A stretch of DNA of 64,000 nt from Haloechinothrix halophila YIM 93223 (GTDB lineage: Bacteria; Actinomycetota; Actinomycetes; Mycobacteriales; Pseudonocardiaceae), in contig NZ_KI632509.1 of NCBI RefSeq assembly GCF_000504245.1, forward strand, positions 743,723 through 807,722, given 5' to 3'. The notes beneath the pieces are model-generated. The model made no database searches. It saw only the letters and a list, made by a program, of their open reading frames with translations, and was not told the origin of the DNA. Below, piece after piece: positions 48,453-59,803 of this stretch. Made by a program: the position numbers and the translations under genes. Position 1 is the stretch's first letter. Each line of letters opens with the position of its first letter.

Positions 48453-48564
48453 AAACGGACATTAAGCCTGAAAGTGGACCATAGTACCACCGCGACGTGG
48501 TGAGCCAGGACACAATTGGGTGAAGGTGTAACGCTGCCATGGACATTGTCGATACTCCAGATGA

Positions 48565-48611
48565 CCCCGTGGTGCTGGCGGACCCCCGACCTGGCAGCAT
48601 CACGGGGTTTT
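48565..48611 (+). terminator. Hairpin with T-run between the AAA ATPase and peptidase genes
   Basis: The 15-bp arms 48565-48579 and 48593-48607 pair at 13 positions (CCCCGTG outer part exact), followed by TTTT at 48608-48611. It is 113 bp beyond the ATPase stop and 116 bp before the peptidase start. It could therefore end the upstream transcript or act as an attenuator in the peptidase leader. Confidence 0.6.
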
Positions 48612-48726
48612 CCAATGCGTGCCCCAGGGTTCATGCGTACCCCGAAGATTCGCGATCTTGGCGCGCGGTACACAATTCAGTACCGAGTGTTACCGCCCGC
48701 GCCCCTTCGACGATTCCAGGAATCTC

Positions 48727-50717: not shown

Positions 50718-52544
50718 TCAGCCGAGGCGCTGCTTCAGCGACTCCAGCTCGTCGCGCAGCGAGGTCGGCAGCTTCTCGCCGATCTTGTCGAACCACTCCT
50801 CGATCAGCGGGATCTCCTGCCGCCACTCGTCGGCGTTGACCTCGAGCGACGCTTCGATGTCCTCGATCGGGGTGTCCTCGAGGCCGGAGAGGTCGAGCTG
50901 GTCGGCGGTGGGAACCCAGCCGATCGGGGTCTCGCTCGCGGCGGCCTTGCCCTCGATCCTCTCGATGATCCACTTCAGCACGCGCGAGTTCTCGCCGAAG
51001 CCAGGCCACAGGATGCGGCGGTCGTCGCCACGGCGGAACCAGTTCACGTAGAAGATCTTCGGCAGCTTGTTCGCGTCGGCGCGCTTGCCGGTGTCGATCC
51101 AGTGCTGGAAGTAGTCGCCGGCGTTGTAGCCGATGAACGGCAGCATCGCCATCGGGTCGCGGCGCACCTCGCCGACCTTGCCCGCGGCGGCCGCGGTCTT
51201 TTCCGAGGACAGCGTCGCACCCATGAAGGTGCCGTGCTGCCAGTCGCGCGACTCCGTGACCAGCGGGATCGTGTTCGCGCGGCGGCCGCCGAACAGGATC
51301 GCCGAGATCGGCACGCCGTTCGGGTCGTCCCACTCCGGCGCGAGGATCGGGCACTGCGACATCGGCGTGCAGTACCGCGAGTTCGGGTGCGCGGCCTTCT
51401 CCTCGGAGTCCGGCGTCCAGTCCTGCTTCTTCCACGACGTCGCGTGGGAGGGCTGGTTCTCCATCTCTTCCCACCACACGTCGCCGTCATCGGTCAGCGC
51501 GACGTTGGTGAAGACCGAGTTGCCCTTGTTGATGGTCTCCATCGCGTGCGGGTTGGTCTTGTAGTTGGTGCCGGGCGCGACGCCGAAGAAGCCAGCCTCC
51601 GGGTTGACGGCGTAAAGCCTGCCGTCGTCGCCGAAGCGCATCCACGCGATGTCATCGCCCAGCGTCTCGACCCGCCAGCCAGGAATGGTGGGCCGCAGCA
51701 TCGCCAGGTTGGTCTTACCGCAGGCGCTCGGGAACGCGGCCGCGATGTAGTAGACCTTGTTCTCCGGCGAGATCAGCTTGAGGATCAGCATGTGCTCGGC
51801 GAGCCAGCCCTCGTCGCGGCCGATCACCGATGCGATGCGCAGCGAGTAGCACTTCTTGCCGAGCAGCGCGTTGCCGCCGTAGCCGGAGCCGTAGCTCCAG
51901 ATCGTGCGCTCCTCGGGGAAGTGGGTGATGTACTTCGTGTCGTTGCACGGCCACGGAACGTCCTCCTGGCCGGGCTCAAGCGGCGCGCCGAGCGAGTGCA
52001 GCGCGGGCACGAACTCGCGCTCGGTGCCGTCGTCCTTGACGAACTTGTCCAGCGCCTGCTTACCCATGCGGGTCATCACACGCATCGAGGCGATGACGTA
52101 CTCGGAGTCGGTGATCTCGACGCCGAGCTTCGGGTTGTCGTCGGCGAGTGGACCCATGCAGAACGGGATGACGTACATGGTGCGACCCCGCATCGAGCCC
52201 CGGTAGAGCTCGGTCATGATCGCCTTCATCTCATCCGGATGCATCCAGTTGTTGGTCGGCCCGGCGTCTTCTTCCCGCTGGGAGCAGATGAACGTGCGCT
52301 CCTCGACCCGTGCGACGTCGCTCGGGTCGGATGCCGCCCAGTACGAGTTGGGCTTCGACTTCAGCGGCACGAAGGTCCCCTGGTCGACCAGCTTCTGGTT
52401 GATCCGTTCCGATTCGGCGTCTGAGCCGTCGATCCATTCCACACGGTCCGGGGTCGTCAGTTCCGCGACCTCACGCACCCATTCGAGCACGCGGCTATGC
52501 GTCGTAGGTGCGTTGTCCAGTCCGGGGATGGCTACAGCAGTCAT
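50718..52544 (-). CDS. pckG: Phosphoenolpyruvate carboxykinase (GTP)
   Basis: 608 aa, preceded by AGGAGAT. GTP-PEPCK hallmarks: the kinase-1a P-loop FPSACGKTN with the reactive Cys, the Mn2+/substrate region [20 protein letters not shown], kinase-2 [12 protein letters not shown], and the [14 protein letters not shown] loop. Length and all motifs are normal. It converts oxaloacetate + GTP to PEP + CO2 for gluconeogenesis and, in actinobacteria, the anaplerotic node. Monocistronic, with a long leader. Confidence 0.97.
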
Positions 52545-52937: not shown

Positions 52938-53699
52938 TTAGTTTGGGCTTAACCACTGCCCGGTGTACGGATCGATTTTGGCGACACCCTCGACATTTGT
53001 TGTGATTCCGCTCACGCCACGGTCGGTGGCTGCCGACGCGACGGTGTCGCCAACGCCGCCGCCGGTATCGCCGCCGTGTGCCCCGCTGGTCTGGGTGGTG
53101 CCGGTGTCGACGCGCTCCCACTGGCCATCGCCGGTGTGCTTCAGGGTGGCCGTGCTGCCGTCTGGCTCGACAACGAGTGCGTAGTCCGCCTCGCCGTCGC
53201 TGTTCACGTCGGTGAAGTAGAAGGTGTTGCCCGCGTCGTCCTTGGTGACGGCGGTGTCGTTCACGCCGTCCTCGTTGGTGTCGATCGTCGGCGGTCCGAC
53301 GTCGAGATCACCCTCCGGCATGTCGGCCGTCATCGGCTTATCGGACCTCGGGGTGTCTTCACTGGTCCGCGTGTCGGTCGGCCCCGTGGCGTCCTCGGGC
53401 TGACCCTGCGCCGATGGGTCGACGGCGATCCATTCGCCGGACTGCTCGTCGAACCGTGCCTCGGCGACGGTGTTGCCCCGCTCGTCGGCCTCAAGGTAGA
53501 TGTCGGCGTCGCCGTCCGCGTCCTCGTCGATGTAGGCGCTCTTGGTGCCGTCCGTGTTCTCGACGATCGCGGTGTCGACGTGCCCATCGGAGTCGAGATC
53601 GGCGTTCTTCTCGACGTCGTAATCCTGCCCGTCGACGGTGACGGTCACGTCCTCGCTGGTCACCGTCTCGTCGCTACCGCCGGACTCATCCACGTACAT
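52938..53699 (-). CDS. DUF6802-like acidic protein with Asp-rich calcium-loop-like repeats
   Basis: 253 aa from ATG 53699, preceded by AGGGGAT. Four DxDxDG-like loops are visible: NADLDSDGHVDTAIVEN, IDEDADGDADIYLE, IDTNEDGVNDTAV and FTDVNSDGEADYALV, each followed by a beta-strand. This is the pattern of dockerin/EF-hand-like or FG-GAP-type calcium sites. Very acidic, Gly/Thr-rich and with no signal peptide, so cytoplasmic or exported by another route. Function unknown. Faces away from the dynamin operon by 210 bp on the same strand. Confidence 0.7.
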   Translation of the reverse strand: MYVDESGGSDETVTSEDVTVTVDGQDYDVEKNADLDSDGHVDTAIVENTDGTKSAYIDEDADGDADIYLEADERGNTVAEARFDEQSGEWIAVDPSAQGQPEDATGPTDTRTSEDTPRSDKPMTADMPEGDLDVGPPTIDTNEDGVNDTAVTKDDAGNTFYFTDVNSDGEADYALVVEPDGSTATLKHTGDGQWERVDTGTTQTSGAHGGDTGGGVGDTVASAATDRGVSGITTNVEGVAKIDPYTGQWLSPN

Positions 53700-53909
53700 T
53701 GCTTGATATCCCCTCGTGTCCGTCGCCCGAACGGGCTCACCACGCGAGACTCGTCGCGTGTTCGTCGAAACGTCGTGACTGAGACTCACCGTAGGCCCAC
53801 CGGGTTCCCGGCACAACGAGTCGACACGCCGACGTGCGAATCAAGCTCGCGGCCACCCCGCTGAGCACCAGTAAAACCGGACGAAACGGGCGCTAATGAC
53901 GCTGAGCGG

Positions 53910-55745
53910 TTAACGCAGCGAGCCGAGCAGCGTCTGGGCGGTCTCGCGGCCGTTCTCCGCCTCCGTGAGGTGGGCGCTGACGGCGGCGAGCTGCTTGGAC
54001 TTTTCCGCCGCGCTGAGCTTCAACGTCTTGTCCACCTCCTTGATCTCCGCCTCGATCGCCTCGATCCGCCTGGTCAGCGCCTCGTCCAAGGCGAGGGACA
54101 ACTGGTGTTCCGCGTCGATGATCTGCTCGGACACCAGCTGGTCCACCGCGGAGCGCGCGTCCGCGATGGCCTCGGTCAGCCACGTCTTCACGTGCTGTTT
54201 GTTCGCGGCGTGCCGCCGCGTCCGGCCGATCCACCAGCCAGCTCCGAGCCCAACGGCCAGCACTGGGACGGCGACCAGGCCCGCCGTGGCCAGCGTCATC
54301 GCGCCGCCGGTTGCCAGGCTCAGCCCTGTCCCACTCGCCCCGATGCCCATGTAGGTGCCCATGCCGACCATGAGCTTGTCCTCCGCGGTCGCGGGCCGCT
54401 TGTCCGGCGGGCGCAGCACGACCGGCCGACTGTCACCTCGCGCGAACTGCGCCCGGATCACCCGCAGTTCGTCCTCGCTGAACAACTCGGCGAGCGCGTT
54501 GTTCGTCGCCGCGTTGAGCCGCTGGTCGAGCAGCGTGTTCAGTCGTGACGACACCAGTTGCAACGCGGAGTCGACTTCCTGCGGCAGTGCGTTGAGGACG
54601 TCGGCGTCCGCGCCGTCGATGCGCTGGCGGAACCACGACTGGACGTCGCGCATCTGCCGCGCGACCTCATGAGTGCAGTCGGTCCGCGCGCGCTGGATCT
54701 CGCTGCGCAACGTGAGCTGCCAGCCCCGCGTCGACGACTTCCGCTCCGCCCGCAGCGCGTCGCGGCGTTCCCGCAGCGCGTCGCCCTCCGACTCGCCCGA
54801 GTTCAGCGCCCTGCGCTCGGCGGTGAGCCGCGCCGCCTGCTCCTCGAACGCGGTGACCAGTGTGCGCAGCGTGTTCGCCTCCCGCAGTGCGTCCGCCTTG
54901 CCGATCACGGCTTCCTGCACCGCGGTCTGCAGCGCGATCACGCCTGACTTCTGCCGCAGCATCGCGGCGGCGTCGTCCGATGGCGCATTGCCGGCCAGCT
55001 CGAACATCCGCGCCGAGACCGGCAGGAACTCGGCGTCAGCGAACCGGGGCGCGTGCGTGGCGAGCAGTTCGGTGTTGGCGGCTGCCACCTGCCGCCAGCC
55101 CTTGAAAGCATCCGTTTTGGACAGTGCGAACAGGACTGTTTCGACTCTGTCGCTCATCTTCCGCAGAAAGTTGAGCTCACTCGCGGTGAACGGCGACGAC
55201 GCGTCCACCACGAACAGCAGCGCGGTCGCCGACGCCGCGGCCTCGATAGCCAGCTCGCCGTGCATCGAGTCGAGCCCGCCGACGCCCGGAGTGTCCACAA
55301 GCGACACGCGTGCCAGCAGCGGGCACGGGTAGGCGACTTCGACGTAGCTCGGCGGCAGCTGCCCCTCAGGTAGCTCGCTGGTGGCCGACGTCCAGTTGGC
55401 CAGCTCAGCCAGCTCGAACGGCACGGGTGGCCGCTGACCCGGATAGCAGGCCTGCGCGCGGGGCTCGTCACCGCTGACGAACCGCAGATACGTCGCCGTG
55501 GCGACCTCGGCATCTACTGGGGACAACCCTGGGCTGGCGAGCATGGCATTGACCAGCGAACTCTTACCGCGTTTGGTTTCACCAACGACGACGATGGCAG
55601 GCGCACCCTGCTGCCGCTCGCGGGTATCGCGTACCCAGTTGGCCGCGCCGGCGTCGATATCCTGAAGCGATGCGATGAGCGAATCGCAGCCCTTTCTGAC
55701 CTTCTCGATCGGCGTGGCCCGCGGCTGGAAGAACGCCGATGTCAT
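53910..55745 (-). CDS. Dynamin-like GTPase A (with membrane-interacting segment)
   Basis: 611 aa from ATG 55745; translation to 56006 would overlap the upstream gene in another frame. G1 GETKRGKS (55-62), G3 DTPG (151-154), G4 SKTD (209-212). Long helical stalk segments follow, with a glycine/alanine-rich hydrophobic stretch at ~455-505 (ATGGAMTLATAGLVAVPVLA and GLGAGWWIG) that can act as a membrane paddle, then a C-terminal coiled coil (EALTRRIEAIEAEIKEVDKTL). It is expected to bind and remodel membrane. Its start overlaps the stop of the GrpE-like gene (ATGA). Confidence 0.88.
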   Translation of the reverse strand: MTSAFFQPRATPIEKVRKGCDSLIASLQDIDAGAANWVRDTRERQQGAPAIVVVGETKRGKSSLVNAMLASPGLSPVDAEVATATYLRFVSGDEPRAQACYPGQRPPVPFELAELANWTSATSELPEGQLPPSYVEVAYPCPLLARVSLVDTPGVGGLDSMHGELAIEAAASATALLFVVDASSPFTASELNFLRKMSDRVETVLFALSKTDAFKGWRQVAAANTELLATHAPRFADAEFLPVSARMFELAGNAPSDDAAAMLRQKSGVIALQTAVQEAVIGKADALREANTLRTLVTAFEEQAARLTAERRALNSGESEGDALRERRDALRAERKSSTRGWQLTLRSEIQRARTDCTHEVARQMRDVQSWFRQRIDGADADVLNALPQEVDSALQLVSSRLNTLLDQRLNAATNNALAELFSEDELRVIRAQFARGDSRPVVLRPPDKRPATAEDKLMVGMGTYMGIGASGTGLSLATGGAMTLATAGLVAVPVLAVGLGAGWWIGRTRRHAANKQHVKTWLTEAIADARSAVDQLVSEQIIDAEHQLSLALDEALTRRIEAIEAEIKEVDKTLKLSAAEKSKQLAAVSAHLTEAENGRETAQTLLGSLR

Positions 55746-56212
55746 GTCGGTTCCCCTGCTGTGTACACGGTCACCACGGGTGCGCGGAGCAGCGCGTCGC
55801 CATCGCGGAACCCGACGATCTCGGTCTCCGCGACCGTGCCAGTCAGCGAGTCGTCCGATGTGGACACCGTGCCGCCTGCCTCGTGGCGGGCGGGGTCGAA
55901 CTGCTCGCCGTCCGGGCGAAGCGCGGTGACCCCGACGTCGGCAAGGCCCTCCTCGATGCGCGTGACGATGCCGCAGCTCTGGGTGCGGTCCAGCGCGTAG
56001 AGGCACAGCTGGATCAGCGCGGCGCGGTCGTCTCGCAGCCGCTGGATGTCGCGCCGCCCGCCGGTGTCGGCCGCCGCGATGAGGTGCGCCGCGATCTCCC
56101 CGGTCGGCACGTCATCGGGGTTGGCCCCCGCGTCCCCCGGGAAGATCCGTGCGTTGCCGGGATCGCCGGCTTTGTCGCCTTGGCGGTTGAACCACGCTGC
56201 CACTGCCACCAC
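55742..56212 (-). CDS. GrpE-like nucleotide exchange factor encoded between two dynamin genes
   Basis: 156 aa, GTG start. The C-terminal ~55 residues match the GrpE beta-domain order (GVTALRPDGEQFDPARHEAGGTV, then GTVAETEIVGFRDGDALLRAPVVTVY). A helical middle (LRDDRAALIQLCLYALDRT) is present, but the long N-terminal coiled coil of true GrpE is shortened. A GrpE implies an Hsp70 partner; none is adjacent in this window. Its stop overlaps the start of dynamin A, and its start follows dynamin B by 6 bp, so the three are one operon. Confidence 0.75.
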   Translation of the reverse strand: MVAVAAWFNRQGDKAGDPGNARIFPGDAGANPDDVPTGEIAAHLIAAADTGGRRDIQRLRDDRAALIQLCLYALDRTQSCGIVTRIEEGLADVGVTALRPDGEQFDPARHEAGGTVSTSDDSLTGTVAETEIVGFRDGDALLRAPVVTVYTAGEPT

Positions 56213-56218
56213 TCTCGT

Positions 56219-57763
56219 CTACTTCTCGCGTAGCTGTTGCCAGATCAGGAAGTACGCCCGGTGCACTACGTGCGCCACCCTGCTTTGTGCCGGAGTCGCG
56301 CCGAACGAGGCGAACGAGCGCCACCAGCCCGCCCGCTCCAGCGCGTGCGCCGTCAGCTGCTCCCTGTCGCCGTCTGGCATACCGAGTTGCGCGGTGACGT
56401 CGGCGTTGCTGCCCACCCGCAGCACTTCCTCGGTGAGGTCGTCCGGCAGCTCGACCGCGCCCGATGTGACCAGCGTGAGCGCTTCGAGTACCCGGAGCTG
56501 GTGTGCTTCCGGCTTGGCGAGCAGCACCTCGATCGCGTCGTGCACCTTCGCGCGTTCTGCGGGGTCGGGCGCGGTGTGGGCGAGCGCGGTGATCGACGCC
56601 AGCGCGGCAGCCGCCTTGATGCCGTCCGCCCGCGCCGCGAACACCGTGTTCAGCCGCGATCGCACTGCTTCGAGCCCGGACGCGTCCCTAATCCTGCGGC
56701 GCAGGTCGCCCGCTGTGACGGCCGGGTCCGACCTGATCGCATGGATGCCGCACTGAATGCCGTAGAGGTCGAGCCTGTCGAGCAGCCGCGTCCTCGTACC
56801 CGAGGGGACGTCGCAGTCCCAGCTGGTGAAGATGTCCGCGGAGAGCAGGATCGTCTCAAGCGTTGCGTCGTCCAGTTCGGACAGTGCCCGCAGCGCGTCG
56901 GCGTCCGCCGAGGTGAACCCGCCTGACTCAGCCGATTCCGCCAGCAATCCGATCACCGGGAGGACGTCCGCCACCTTCGGTTTCAGCGTCGCGGCCTGTG
57001 CCTCGGCGAGCAGTGCCGCCGCACGCCAGACGTCACCGTCCGCGCCCGCTACGGACTCAGGGGCGATGATGTCCGCCTTGTTCAGCACGGCGATGGCGTT
57101 GACCGGACCGGCTTCCCTGCTCGCGGTCGCCGCGGTGAACGCGGCGAGCGCCTGCTGATCGTCGGCCCGCACGCTCTGCGTCACCACGTACAGCACCGCC
57201 TCCGCCCCCGCGACGGCGTCCCGGGAGGTGTGGTCGAGCACGTCCCCGCCGTCCGGCTCCCGCCGGGTGCCGAGCACACCCTCGGTGCGCGCCACCGACG
57301 CCGCGTCCAGCGAGCCGAGGCCAGGGGTGTCGATCACCGTCATGTCCCTGAGGACGGCGCTGGTCAGATACGCCTCGATGTGCGAGACGGCGTCGGTGTC
57401 CATGCCGAGCGACGCGGGAATCATGCCGTCGGCGTCGAACGGCAACACCGTGGTGGTGCCGTCGGTGCGCACCACCTCGACCCGGTCCACCGTGCCGTAC
57501 TGGAAGCGGGTGACCAGCCGGGTGCACTCACCGATGTCCGTCGGCGCGACCCTGCGCCCGATCAGCGCGTTGACCAGCGTGGACTTGCCCGACTTGATCC
57601 GCCCGGCCACCGCGACCTGCAGCGGGGCGCCCAGCCTGCGCAGCACCTCTGCGAACCCGGCCGCCGTCGCGGGCCCGACCTGGGGCTGCAGCCTGCGGCA
57701 GAGGTTGGCGACCGAGGTGGACAGCGGACCAGCGAGCGCGCTCTGCTCCGTCACGGCGGTCAC
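56219..57763 (-). CDS. Dynamin-like GTPase B
   Basis: 514 aa from GTG 57763, in MTAVTEQSAL. G1 GRIKSGKS (54-61), G3 DTPG (144-147), G4 NKAD (227-230); a helical C-terminal half with no obvious membrane segment. It differs from dynamin A by lacking the hydrophobic paddle, which suggests a heteromeric pair in which A binds membrane and B is the partner. First gene of the dynamin B - GrpE-like - dynamin A operon, divergent from a histidine kinase gene. Confidence 0.88.
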   Translation of the reverse strand: MTAVTEQSALAGPLSTSVANLCRRLQPQVGPATAAGFAEVLRRLGAPLQVAVAGRIKSGKSTLVNALIGRRVAPTDIGECTRLVTRFQYGTVDRVEVVRTDGTTTVLPFDADGMIPASLGMDTDAVSHIEAYLTSAVLRDMTVIDTPGLGSLDAASVARTEGVLGTRREPDGGDVLDHTSRDAVAGAEAVLYVVTQSVRADDQQALAAFTAATASREAGPVNAIAVLNKADIIAPESVAGADGDVWRAAALLAEAQAATLKPKVADVLPVIGLLAESAESGGFTSADADALRALSELDDATLETILLSADIFTSWDCDVPSGTRTRLLDRLDLYGIQCGIHAIRSDPAVTAGDLRRRIRDASGLEAVRSRLNTVFAARADGIKAAAALASITALAHTAPDPAERAKVHDAIEVLLAKPEAHQLRVLEALTLVTSGAVELPDDLTEEVLRVGSNADVTAQLGMPDGDREQLTAHALERAGWWRSFASFGATPAQSRVAHVVHRAYFLIWQQLREK

Positions 57764-57892
57764 TCCCCCATCCCCTTCCTGATCGGCCCGGCGCGGGTCG
57801 CTTGCGGCATCGTGCCACGACACGGGTCCGCCTGAGGTTCACCCCAGGGTGCTACCTGAGATGGACGCGCGGGCGATGTTTCCCAACATAGT

Positions 57893-59107
57893 GTGAGGCG
57901 TATGCGCCGGCTGAGCCTGTGGCTGCACGCCCATCCGATGGTCGGCGACAGCGCGATGGCCGTGCTGATCGCCCTGTTCGACCTGCTGCTGGTCACCGTC
58001 GATGGCGAACAGCGGATGGGGCCGCCCGCGCCGGACGCCGTCCTCGCCGTGATCATCGTCGCGACGGTCGCGCCGCTGGTCATCCGGCGCAGGCACCCGA
58101 TGTGGTTCGCCTACCTTGTGCTCGCCATCGGCGCCGTGCACGCGGCATACGAGCTGGGGCTCGCCGCCGTCGCCACCGCGTGCATCGCCGTCTACACGCT
58201 GATCGTCTACGTGAACCGGCGGCAGACGGCGATCTACTTCGTGGTGATGGTCGTCTCCTCCGCGGTGCAGATCCTGATCCAGTTCGACCGCGCGGAGTGG
58301 CTGATCGCGCTGGGCTTCACCGGCGGTTCGCTGGGATTCTGCTGGGTGCTTGGCGAGTTCGTCGGCGCGCGGCGGGCGTACCGGGCGGAGATGGAGGCGC
58401 GGCTGCACCTGTTGGAGACCGAACGCGACCAGGCGAGCCAGATCGCCGTCGCCGCGGAGCGAAGCCGGATCGCGCGGGAGCTGCACGACGTCATCGCGCA
58501 CGCGGTGAGCGTGATCGTGGTGCAAGCCGATGGCGCGATGTACACGATCGAGCGGGATCCCGCCACCGCGCGGGACGCGCTGCGCACCATCGCCGAGACC
58601 GGCAGGGGCGCCCTCGACGAGCTGCGTGGGCTGCTCGACGTCCTGCGTGGGTCAGGCGACGCCGCCGAGCAGCCGCTCGCCCCGCAGCCGGGCATCGCCG
58701 CGCTGCCCGAGCTGGCCGAGCGGATGCGCGCCGCTGGTATGCCGGTGCGGCTCGAGCTGGACGGCGACTTCGTCGACGTCTCAACCGGTGTCGAACTCGG
58801 CGTGTTCCGCATCGTGCAGGAGGCGTTGACCAATACGCTCAAGCATGCGGGCCGGACCGCGTCGGCGTCGGTGACGGTGACGCAGCGGGCCGACTCGGTC
58901 GAGGTCGACGTCGTCGATGACGGCGCTGGCAAGGCGCGCCCCGTGCTCGCGCCCGCGCTGACCGACGTGGCGGGCGGGAACGGCTTGATCGGCATGCGCG
59001 AGCGCGCGTCGGTGTTCGGTGGCAGGCTGAACGTCGGGCCGGAACCGGGCGGCGGCTGGCGGGTGCACGCCGTCATCCCGCACCAGGGCAGACACGCCGT
59101 GCCGTGA
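57893..59107 (+). CDS. NarL-type sensor histidine kinase
   Basis: 404 aa from GTG 57893 (ATG 57902 is also possible; neither has a strong ribosome-binding site). About four to five N-terminal membrane helices with hardly any extracellular domain (intramembrane-sensing type). The HisKA_3 H-box ERSRIARELHDVIAHAVSVI has the phospho-His near residue 198. The HATPase has the N-box FRIVQEALTNTLKHAG and G-box NGLIGMRERASVFGG. It pairs with the downstream response regulator. The intramembrane type often responds to cell-envelope stress or antibiotics. Confidence 0.92.
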   Translation: MRRMRRLSLWLHAHPMVGDSAMAVLIALFDLLLVTVDGEQRMGPPAPDAVLAVIIVATVAPLVIRRRHPMWFAYLVLAIGAVHAAYELGLAAVATACIAVYTLIVYVNRRQTAIYFVVMVVSSAVQILIQFDRAEWLIALGFTGGSLGFCWVLGEFVGARRAYRAEMEARLHLLETERDQASQIAVAAERSRIARELHDVIAHAVSVIVVQADGAMYTIERDPATARDALRTIAETGRGALDELRGLLDVLRGSGDAAEQPLAPQPGIAALPELAERMRAAGMPVRLELDGDFVDVSTGVELGVFRIVQEALTNTLKHAGRTASASVTVTQRADSVEVDVVDDGAGKARPVLAPALTDVAGGNGLIGMRERASVFGGRLNVGPEPGGGWRVHAVIPHQGRHAVP

Positions 59108-59152: not shown

Positions 59153-59803
59153 GTGATCCGGGTTGTGCTTGTCGATGACCAGGAGCTGATGCGCGTCGGC
59201 TTCCGGATGGTGCTCGGCGCGCAATCCGACATCGACGTCGTCGCCGAGGCGGGTGACGGCGAGCGGGCGGTGCGGCTCGCTGAGCAGCATCGGCCGGATG
59301 TCGTGCTGATGGACGTCCGGATGCCGGTGCTCGATGGCGTTGAGGCCACTCGGCGGATCGTGGCGGCAGGCACCGCGCGCGTGCTGGTGATGACCACCTT
59401 CGACCTGGACGAGTACGTCTACTCCGCGCTACGCGGCGGCGCGAGCGGGTTCTTGCTCAAGGACACCCCGCCGGACGAGCTGGTGTTCGCGCTGCGATCG
59501 GTGGCATCCGGTGACGCCGTCGTCTCGCCGAGTGTGACCCGGCGGCTGCTCGACCGGTTCGTCGACTCCGGTAGCGCGCCGCGCGACACCACCGTGCTCG
59601 AGGTGCTGACCGAACGGGAACGTGAGGTGCTGGCACTGGTGGCGCGCGGGATGTCGAACACCGAGATCGCCGAGAGGCTGTACCTGTCGGAGGCCACCGT
59701 CAAGACGCACGTCGGGCGGATTCTGACCAAGCTGGACCTGCGCGACCGGGTGCAGGCCGTCGTGCTCGCGTACGAGACAGGGCTGGCCCGGCCGGGCGTC
59801 TGA
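59153..59803 (+). CDS. LuxR/NarL-family response regulator
   Basis: 216 aa, preceded by GGGGAGA. The receiver domain has an intact phosphoacceptor Asp in VVLMDVRMPVLDG (residue ~53), acidic DDQE near the N-terminus, and the conserved Lys in FLLKDTPPDEL. The LuxR HTH is TEREREVLALVARGMSNTEIAERLYLSEATVKTHVGRI. All catalytic residues are present, unlike the atypical regulator at 13069. It is expected to control the ABC exporter that follows. Confidence 0.93.
   Translation: MIRVVLVDDQELMRVGFRMVLGAQSDIDVVAEAGDGERAVRLAEQHRPDVVLMDVRMPVLDGVEATRRIVAAGTARVLVMTTFDLDEYVYSALRGGASGFLLKDTPPDELVFALRSVASGDAVVSPSVTRRLLDRFVDSGSAPRDTTVLEVLTEREREVLALVARGMSNTEIAERLYLSEATVKTHVGRILTKLDLRDRVQAVVLAYETGLARPGV

Follow-up and report, generated by a model that had tools for sequence, protein, structure and literature searches.

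The analyzed stretch, 64,000 nucleotides of Haloechinothrix halophila YIM 93223 (contig NZ_KI632509.1, positions 743,723 to 807,722; hereafter the window), carries a tight operon in which grpL, a gene for a GrpE-like protein, lies between the genes of two dynamin-like GTPases, dynB and dynA. Our comparative data point to GrpL as a dedicated exchange factor for an Hsp70-type ATPase without a recognizable substrate-binding domain (SBD), which would in turn control the dynamin pair; we hold this reading tentatively, at a little under an even chance. The simplest account of the data has a single theme, in which an Hsp70-type switch acts on heterotypic dynamins and GrpL serves as its exchange factor. 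To our knowledge, little has been established about the control of bacterial dynamins, and the proposal supplies a specific, testable hypothesis, namely that membrane-remodeling GTPases are gated by an Hsp70-type switch through its ATP cycle.

An earlier note made from the DNA sequence had described the DynB-GrpL-DynA operon, and our analysis confirmed it: dynB ends 6 bp before grpL begins, and grpL and dynA overlap at their stop and start codons in ATGA. Conservation was traced in 150 sampled genomes of the window's family (f1), taken as Pseudonocardiaceae because the best named records were from Actinophytocola, Amycolatopsis, Thermocrispum, Saccharothrix, Prauserella, and similar genera. 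GrpL was found in 122 of these genomes at E 4.5e-30 or better. The arrangement is not a matter of chance, since dynB-grpL-dynA kept its order and strand in all 40 fetched relatives, 38 of which also carried the DUF6802 and phosphoenolpyruvate carboxykinase (pck) genes; in L070, 1.3 kb with other open reading frames (ORFs) separates dynB from grpL. With starts chosen mechanically, the grpL-dynA junction was a 4-bp overlap in 29/41 loci. Among the best 80 of 233 named-record loci, which partly represent the same genomes as the 40 relatives, all three genes were present in 79 and tightly colinear in 76, the exceptions being three loci with a dynB-grpL gap of 1.9-4.5 kb (with other ORFs in two) and one cut by a contig end. 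Linkage to dynamin genes was therefore near universal where GrpL occurs, the opposite of the complete lack of linkage against which the earlier note had cautioned. Median identity of the 40 relatives to the window was 75% for DynB, 60% for DynA, and 64% for GrpL. This synteny and strong constraint favor a core cellular role and disfavor a mobile defense system; membrane repair and septation, also raised by the earlier note, are candidate roles. One record titled Rhodococcus rhodnii (L226) carries a Pseudonocardiaceae-type operon with a GrpL identity of 58%, the same as in Kibdelosporangium records, and its title may be wrong.

Both GTPases exceeded the Pfam Dynamin_N cut-off of 27 bits (53 bits for DynB and 60 bits for DynA). 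The window and 40/40 relatives have the G1 (GxxxxGK[ST]) and G3 (DTPG) motifs in both dynamins, which bears out the earlier description of two GTPases with intact G motifs (in DynB: G1 GRIKSGKS, G3 DTPG, G4 LNKAD). By pattern, a G4-like motif was found in every DynB and was unmatched in the DynA of 5/41 loci. A hydrophobic segment, defined by a mean of at least 1.6 over 19 residues, was detected in 41/41 DynA and 2/41 DynB sequences, window included, with a hydropathy peak of 2.06 near residue 482 in the window DynA. This sequence measure supports a pair that is asymmetric in hydrophobicity, in line with the earlier proposal that only DynA has a paddle-like segment. DynA matched IniA (PDB 6j72; E 2.7e-20) and the PADLOC LeoA model (8.2e-30), the LeoA/LeoBC models matching both DynA and DynB. 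Matches of DynB in the PDB were restricted to its GTPase part; its profile (A2) held 40/41 DynB sequences, and its predicted structure from 40 homologues was poor (mean predicted local distance difference test [pLDDT], 57.4).

The assignment of GrpL was examined at several levels. It scored 29.3 bits against Pfam GrpE (cut-off, 25.8; residues 86-149), and a profile of 36/41 GrpL sequences (A1; five with uncertain long N-termini were excluded) matched seven sequences of the PDB (E≤1), every one a GrpE, in agreement with the earlier reading of the protein as GrpE-like. Its AlphaFold model (mean pLDDT, 75.7; predicted template modeling score, 0.55) comprised helices at 42-76 and 80-92 and a beta-wing at about 95-151, the long coiled coil being absent. 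The first nine Foldseek matches were all GrpE (best E, 1.6e-3; none at E≤0.001), so that the predicted fold, which the earlier note had named as its possible undoing, pointed to GrpE, if weakly. The N-terminus is variable, with a WF[RK] motif in many relatives. FDPxxHEA was kept in 41/41 GrpL sequences, with G[FY] and LR also present, and HEA[GA][GA] and RxP[IV]V were likewise found in 41/41. These signature differences, with FDPxxHEA retained, indicate a distinct GrpE subfamily, and the sequence data support GrpL as a GrpE relative with the beta-wing and without the long coiled coil. Genome-wide, only two GrpE matches were found at E up to 10, GrpL and the canonical GrpE beside dnaK, whose genes lie approximately 72 kb from the operon.

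The evidence for an Hsp70-type partner comes from dynamin loci at other sites. An iterated Hsp70 profile detected no Hsp70-like ORF in the 64-kb window, and the 11 PF00012 matches of the whole genome all lie outside it. Such an ORF occurred in one of the 40 pck-linked loci (L089, 4.8 kb from dynB), and a cut Hsp70 piece lay at the edge of one of the 80 named-record loci (L268). GrpE-like proteins were then sought in the class with A1 (23/296 genomes), in family f71 with A3 (12/35), and in family f2, Mycobacteriaceae by inference, with A1 (14/121), and the neighborhoods were fetched; G561 among the 23 class genomes, 9/14 f2 genomes, and secondary f1 hits (e.g., G131) lay outside the wide-flank fetch, and three unfetched f2 hits (L182-L184) read as ordinary long GrpE. 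Thirteen loci outside the pck site combined dynamin and GrpE-like genes (L140, L141, L142, L271, and L152 in f71; L143-L146 in f70; L188-L190 in f2; L176 in the f1 genus g42), and all 13 had an Hsp70-type ORF no more than 2.5 kb from a dynamin or GrpE-like gene. These loci are not independent and form about five groups; the GrpE-like protein of L152 is of another subtype. The set excludes L139, a pck-linked locus of family f66 in which no Hsp70 was found, and the following loci without a dynamin: five with canonical dnaK-grpE (L149, L154, L155, L157, and L158), five with neither Hsp70 nor dynamin (L150, L151, L181, L272, and L274), and L273, with only a distant cut Hsp70 piece. The neighborhood check suggested earlier, for a linked Hsp70-like gene, thus returned one in every such locus outside the pck site. 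The description of the system as lacking a local Hsp70 holds for the window and the pck-linked version and fails at the 13 loci outside that site and at two further dynamin pairs of the same genome.

These two iniBAC-like pairs have local Hsp70-type genes (L020:4251-14366 and L021:5142-13698). L020 comprises genes for a LuxR-type regulator and IniB-like, IniA-like, IniC-like, and Hsp70-like proteins, and L021 also has a large regulator, an IniB-like protein, and an Hsp70-like nucleotide-binding domain (NBD) protein; IniB and IniR were so named from gene position and by inspection, and the LuxR domain (scanned in L020) is the only one named by Pfam. A GrpE-like gene was looked for inside these own iniBAC loci and none was found. 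Of 20 phylum-wide dynamin loci that were fetched, eight of iniBAC type (L105-L112) carry Hsp70-like genes, and none was found at L104 (cut by a contig end), at five pck-linked f2 loci, or at L113-L118. Three arrangements recur: an Hsp70-like gene accompanies iniBAC-type dynamins in the absence of a GrpE-like gene, GrpL accompanies pck-linked dynamins in the absence of an Hsp70, and some loci have the full set. The L176 cluster (L176:6615-15497) encodes an Hsp70-like protein, DynA, DynB, and a GrpE-like protein whose N-terminus bears a hydrophobic segment; as judged by inspection, it also encodes a serine/threonine-kinase-like protein and what may be a secreted protein. Six of the loci left out of the 13 (L147, L148, L153, L156, L275, and L276) have GrpE-like and Hsp70-type genes and no dynamin, with a possible DnaJ-like gene at L147 by inspection; they are possibly related to published HSP70/GrpE conflict-type loci.

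Six Hsp70-type proteins (from L020, L021, L176, L188, L140, and the ~4.007-Mb position of this genome) matched Pfam HSP70 only to position 373/599 at most, corresponding to the NBD; the two DnaK-type proteins of the genome matched to position 598. In an NBD tree of 26 sequences, a split with 99/98 support placed on one side 12 rows from nine of the 13 loci, the genome's own 128-kb and 4007-kb proteins, L089, and L178, and on the other DnaK, iniBAC-linked, and other Hsp70s. This tree was midpoint-rooted, included a wrongly trimmed L022 sequence beginning at residue 261, and excluded the Hsp70-likes of L021, L141, L145, L146, and L152. In an earlier tree of 37 longer sequences, the f70/f71 Hsp70s likewise grouped with the genome's two and L089 (99/96). 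By inspection, the 4007-kb, 128-kb, and L020 Hsp70-like proteins have a hydrophobic, presumably transmembrane segment. The 128-kb gene (L023:4293-11537), as judged by inspection, lies in an apparent WXG100/EccC type VII secretion cluster. At L140:4706-7138 in f71, a WD40 propeller follows an Hsp70-type NBD in one fused protein, whose gene neighbors a dynamin pair and a GrpE-like gene.

In the mechanism that we propose, DynA would bind the cytoplasmic membrane via its paddle, and DynB would be the paddle-less partner in a mixed GTPase assembly there. The beta-wing of GrpL would release ADP from a specialized Hsp70-type ATPase, with general protein folding not being served, and the ATP state of this ATPase would control whether the dynamin assembly is recruited or taken apart. 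The partner would be encoded adjacently in loci outside the pck site and elsewhere in the genome in the pck-linked version; the best candidate in this genome may be the Hsp70-like gene at ~4.007 Mb, whose 512-aa product appears on inspection to have an NBD, a proline-rich linker, and a transmembrane helix. Envelope maintenance would be the purpose of the system. A more ambitious form, possible but less probable than the proposal itself, is an actinobacterial chaperone-switched dynamin machine, in which an SBD-less Hsp70-type ATPase and a dedicated mini-GrpE drive the assembly or disassembly of a heterotypic dynamin coat, the pck-linked form being a widespread split version; its ATPase is WD40-fused in one f71 locus and would probably be membrane-tethered in this genome.

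Several observations weigh against an exchange-factor role. The pck-linked version has no linked partner Hsp70, and the background for the 13/13 linkage consists of the 40 pck-linked and 80 named loci only. L272 (f71) has a strong GrpE-like match with neither dynamin nor Hsp70 nearby, and L178 has Hsp70-like, DynA, and DynB genes without GrpL. No GrpE-like gene was found at the eight iniBAC loci with Hsp70 or at L104, and neither GrpE-like nor Hsp70-like genes were found at L113-L118. In the 37-sequence tree, the L152 Hsp70-like protein falls by DnaK on a long branch. Structural matches of GrpL were weak (Foldseek TM, 0.23-0.30; maximum VIA Z, 6.7, versus 6.1 for an unrelated GAF protein), and since the fold evidence alone is weak, the GrpE assignment rests on sequence. 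The canonical GrpE signature (PROSITE-like) reads HEA[LIVMTN] and RxA. This signature was matched by 0/41 GrpL sequences, but by the canonical GrpE of the same genome and by 4/5 other dnaK-linked GrpE (L158 fails), and because it is broken in 41/41, binding of GrpL to any Hsp70 is putative. Finally, six genomes (G081, G079, G046, G069, G035, and G006) have dynB-dynA beside pck without GrpL (L169-L174).

The strongest rival is that GrpL no longer serves any Hsp70 and now acts directly on both GTPases, as their regulator or scaffold (an adaptor or an exchange/assembly factor). The position of grpL between the dynamin genes with tight junctions, the lack of an Hsp70-like ORF in 39/40 pck-linked stretches, and the departure from canonical GrpE at HEA[GA][GA] and RxP (41/41) are all in keeping with it, as are the G1 and G3 motifs in both dynamins of all 41 GrpL-bearing pck-type loci and the absence of GrpL from pck-linked loci whose G motifs are lost (five in Mycobacteriaceae, and two in g42 with DynA lost). 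We nevertheless consider it unlikely, given the Hsp70-type gene accompanying related GrpE-like genes in 13/13 other dynamin loci, the retained beta-wing, and the six intact pck-linked dynamin pairs that lack GrpL. Of the two roles that the earlier note had offered, action on a distant Hsp70-like ATPase is favored because of the 13/13 linkage, and recruitment to regulate the GTPases themselves has become the less favored one.

The pattern of GrpL loss bears on both readings. Of the 150 f1 genomes, 28 had no strong GrpL match (22 with none, and six weak or divergent), and a DynA search of these 28 returned seven matches at E 1e-150 or better. The other 21 comprised 18 genomes with more distant dynamins and three with none at 1e-10; this joint absence of strong GrpL and DynA matches in 21/28 supports the proposed exchange-factor role. 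Both dynamins of the six GrpL-less pck-linked pairs have G1 and G3 (6/6). G077 was excluded from the loss count because its contig ends inside dynA, and G081 is a draft of 620 contigs. The six loci span four genera, of which g1 and g46 also hold GrpL-bearing species, which implies at least three losses of GrpL; the count is three since g35 and g6 could share one loss. As the dynamins stayed intact through these losses, GrpL is accessory, and the earlier statement that the three products are made together stands for the conserved operon and not as an obligate rule. The idea of GrpL as a marker of GTPase-competent dynamins was half upheld, in view of the same six pairs.

Degenerate dynamins were found in pck-linked loci without GrpL. 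The pck-type GrpL was not seen in the 121 f2 genomes, because none of the 14 with an A1 match at 1e-6 exceeded 35.0 bits. In five fetched pck-linked f2 pairs, which have no GrpL, the pattern search matched neither G1 nor G3 in either protein (5/5), and profile comparison supports their homology to DynA (99.95%) and DynB (99.4%). At these loci (L099-L103), the degenerate pair lies between pck and an MmpL3-like gene, e.g., L103:9018-11497 and L102:7948-10424, with MmpL3 recognized by inspection in L102 and L103. By gene order, this pair would correspond to Rv0209-Rv0210 of Mycobacterium tuberculosis. Rv0209-Rv0210 are listed as hypothetical/conserved membrane protein in the available part of PMC6306742. 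In the f1 genus g42, L177 and L179 are pck-linked with a DynA without G1/G3 and no GrpL. The analysis thereby uncovers, next to pck and an mmpL3-like gene in Mycobacteriaceae, cryptic descendants of dynamins that lack the GTPase motifs.

A second rival, quite improbable in our view, makes GrpL another exchange factor for the housekeeping DnaK, bringing the chaperone to the membrane to fold or disaggregate dynamins under stress. The retained GrpE beta-wing and the canonical dnaK and grpE located ~72 kb away in the same genome would suit it; GrpL, however, has neither the long coiled coil nor the canonical GrpE signature, and most linked Hsp70s in relatives form a separate group from DnaK, with the L152 exception in the 37-sequence tree. 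Coincidence, in which GrpL has no functional tie to the dynamins and is kept by operon structure alone, would explain why GrpL was lost without loss of the dynamins, but it is very improbable because GrpE-like and dynamin genes are linked at other sites and in other orders in f70, f71, f2, and g42 (L140-L146, L176, L188-L190, and L271). Least probable of all is a phage-defense or conflict system, a role raised by the earlier note, with dynamins as membrane effectors and GrpL/Hsp70 as a sensor-switch as in LeoBC or DO-GTPase/GAP1: the PADLOC LeoA/LeoBC models match DynA and DynB, and GTPase-HSP70-GrpE neighborhoods are described for DO-GTPase systems in the available part of PMC7159879, but the operon occupies one chromosomal site beside pckG (38/40), DynB is ~75% identical across genera, and no DO-GTPase or GAP1 domain was listed by Pfam.

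The coordinates of the operon and its neighbors are given in Table 1. DynB has an alternative GTG start at 57823, which would give 534 aa. The DUF6802 gene, present in the fetched stretch of 38/40 relatives, and pckG lie downstream of the operon; pckG served as a synteny marker and probably does not belong to the module. Upstream, the divergent histidine kinase is a possible regulator of the operon, and the LuxR-type response regulator is its presumed partner. A promoter and terminator scan gave no signal above chance. An F6 small RNA was located at window positions 48558-48614 (Rfam RF01791, 67.9 bits).

Table 1. Operon genes and flanking genes in window coordinates
Feature	Coordinates	Strand	Remarks
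DynB, dynamin-like GTPase without hydrophobic paddle segment	56219..57763	-	514 aa; IniC-like place in pair
GrpL, GrpE-like protein	55742..56212	-	156 aa; Pfam GrpE
DynA, dynamin-like GTPase with paddle-like hydrophobic segment	53910..55745	-	611 aa; IniA/LeoA-like
DUF6802 protein, acidic, FG-GAP-like repeats	52938..53816	-	Pfam DUF6802, 35.4 bits; start codon uncertain
pckG, GTP-dependent phosphoenolpyruvate carboxykinase	50718..52544	-	Pfam PEPCK_GTP, 582 bits; present in 38/40 relatives
Histidine kinase, divergent to operon	57893..59107	+	Pfam HisKA_3 and HATPase_c; matched in 33/40 relatives
LuxR-type response regulator	59153..59803	+	Pfam Response_reg and GerE; matched in 31/40 relatives

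Among the matches listed, no description of a dynamin-GrpE operon was found in the open-access full texts searched. A 2017 PNAS paper reportedly deals with the septal dynamins DynA/DynB of Streptomyces. Those proteins resemble the window pair as two interacting bacterial dynamins of actinomycetes (PMC8748795), and the term GrpE is absent from the main text of that source. Dynamins encoded side by side are also found in Campylobacter, where Cj-DLP1/2 form a heterotypic pair (PMC6104087), and in LeoABC of E. coli, with no GrpE or Hsp70 partner mentioned in the available parts of either source.

Pfam includes models for the DO-GTPase and GAP1 domains. Neither appeared in our scan (E≤1) of DynB, GrpL, DynA, and the DUF6802 protein, for which the families listed were Dynamin_N, general GTPase, P-loop, and unrelated ones, or in pckG, the kinase, and the regulator (E≤0.001), the flanks to which the scan was limited. 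The DO-GTPase/GAP1-N2 systems resemble the loci studied here in that actinobacterial loci combine HSP70 and GrpE with a GTPase, at times a paralogous pair (Kaur et al. 2020, PMC7159879). As far as the available part of that source goes, however, DO-GTPases are a separate TRAFAC family going with GAP1 (PMC7159879), whereas the window GTPases are dynamins.

GrpL shares with the GrpE exchange factors the beta-wing with FDPxxHEA, G[FY], and LR and a Pfam GrpE score above the cut-off; it differs from them in lacking the long N-terminal coiled coil, in HEA[GA][GA] and RxP, and in being encoded with dynamins rather than with dnaK. The dynamin pair itself resembles IniA/IniC of iniBAC, likewise a pair of dynamin-like GTPases, in which IniA has a membrane-binding tip (6j72; PMC6715688) and, according to the available part of the same source, fission activity. 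The window nevertheless differs from iniBAC in its DynB-GrpL-DynA order, the inserted GrpE-like gene, the lack of a local Hsp70, and the position beside pckG, and the iniBAC-like loci of this genome are separate (L020 and L021); with queries taken from the genome's own L020 proteins, iniR was the best match to no ORF in 40/40 relatives, and no iniB match was listed. A dnaK-like gene has been described at iniR of M. smegmatis (PMC5760070, in the part available), and our proposal would offer a reason for the dnaK-like genes in iniBAC loci, which are known for envelope stress. A chaperone-switched dynamin machine of this kind would be the bacterial counterpart of Hsc70-driven coat remodeling.

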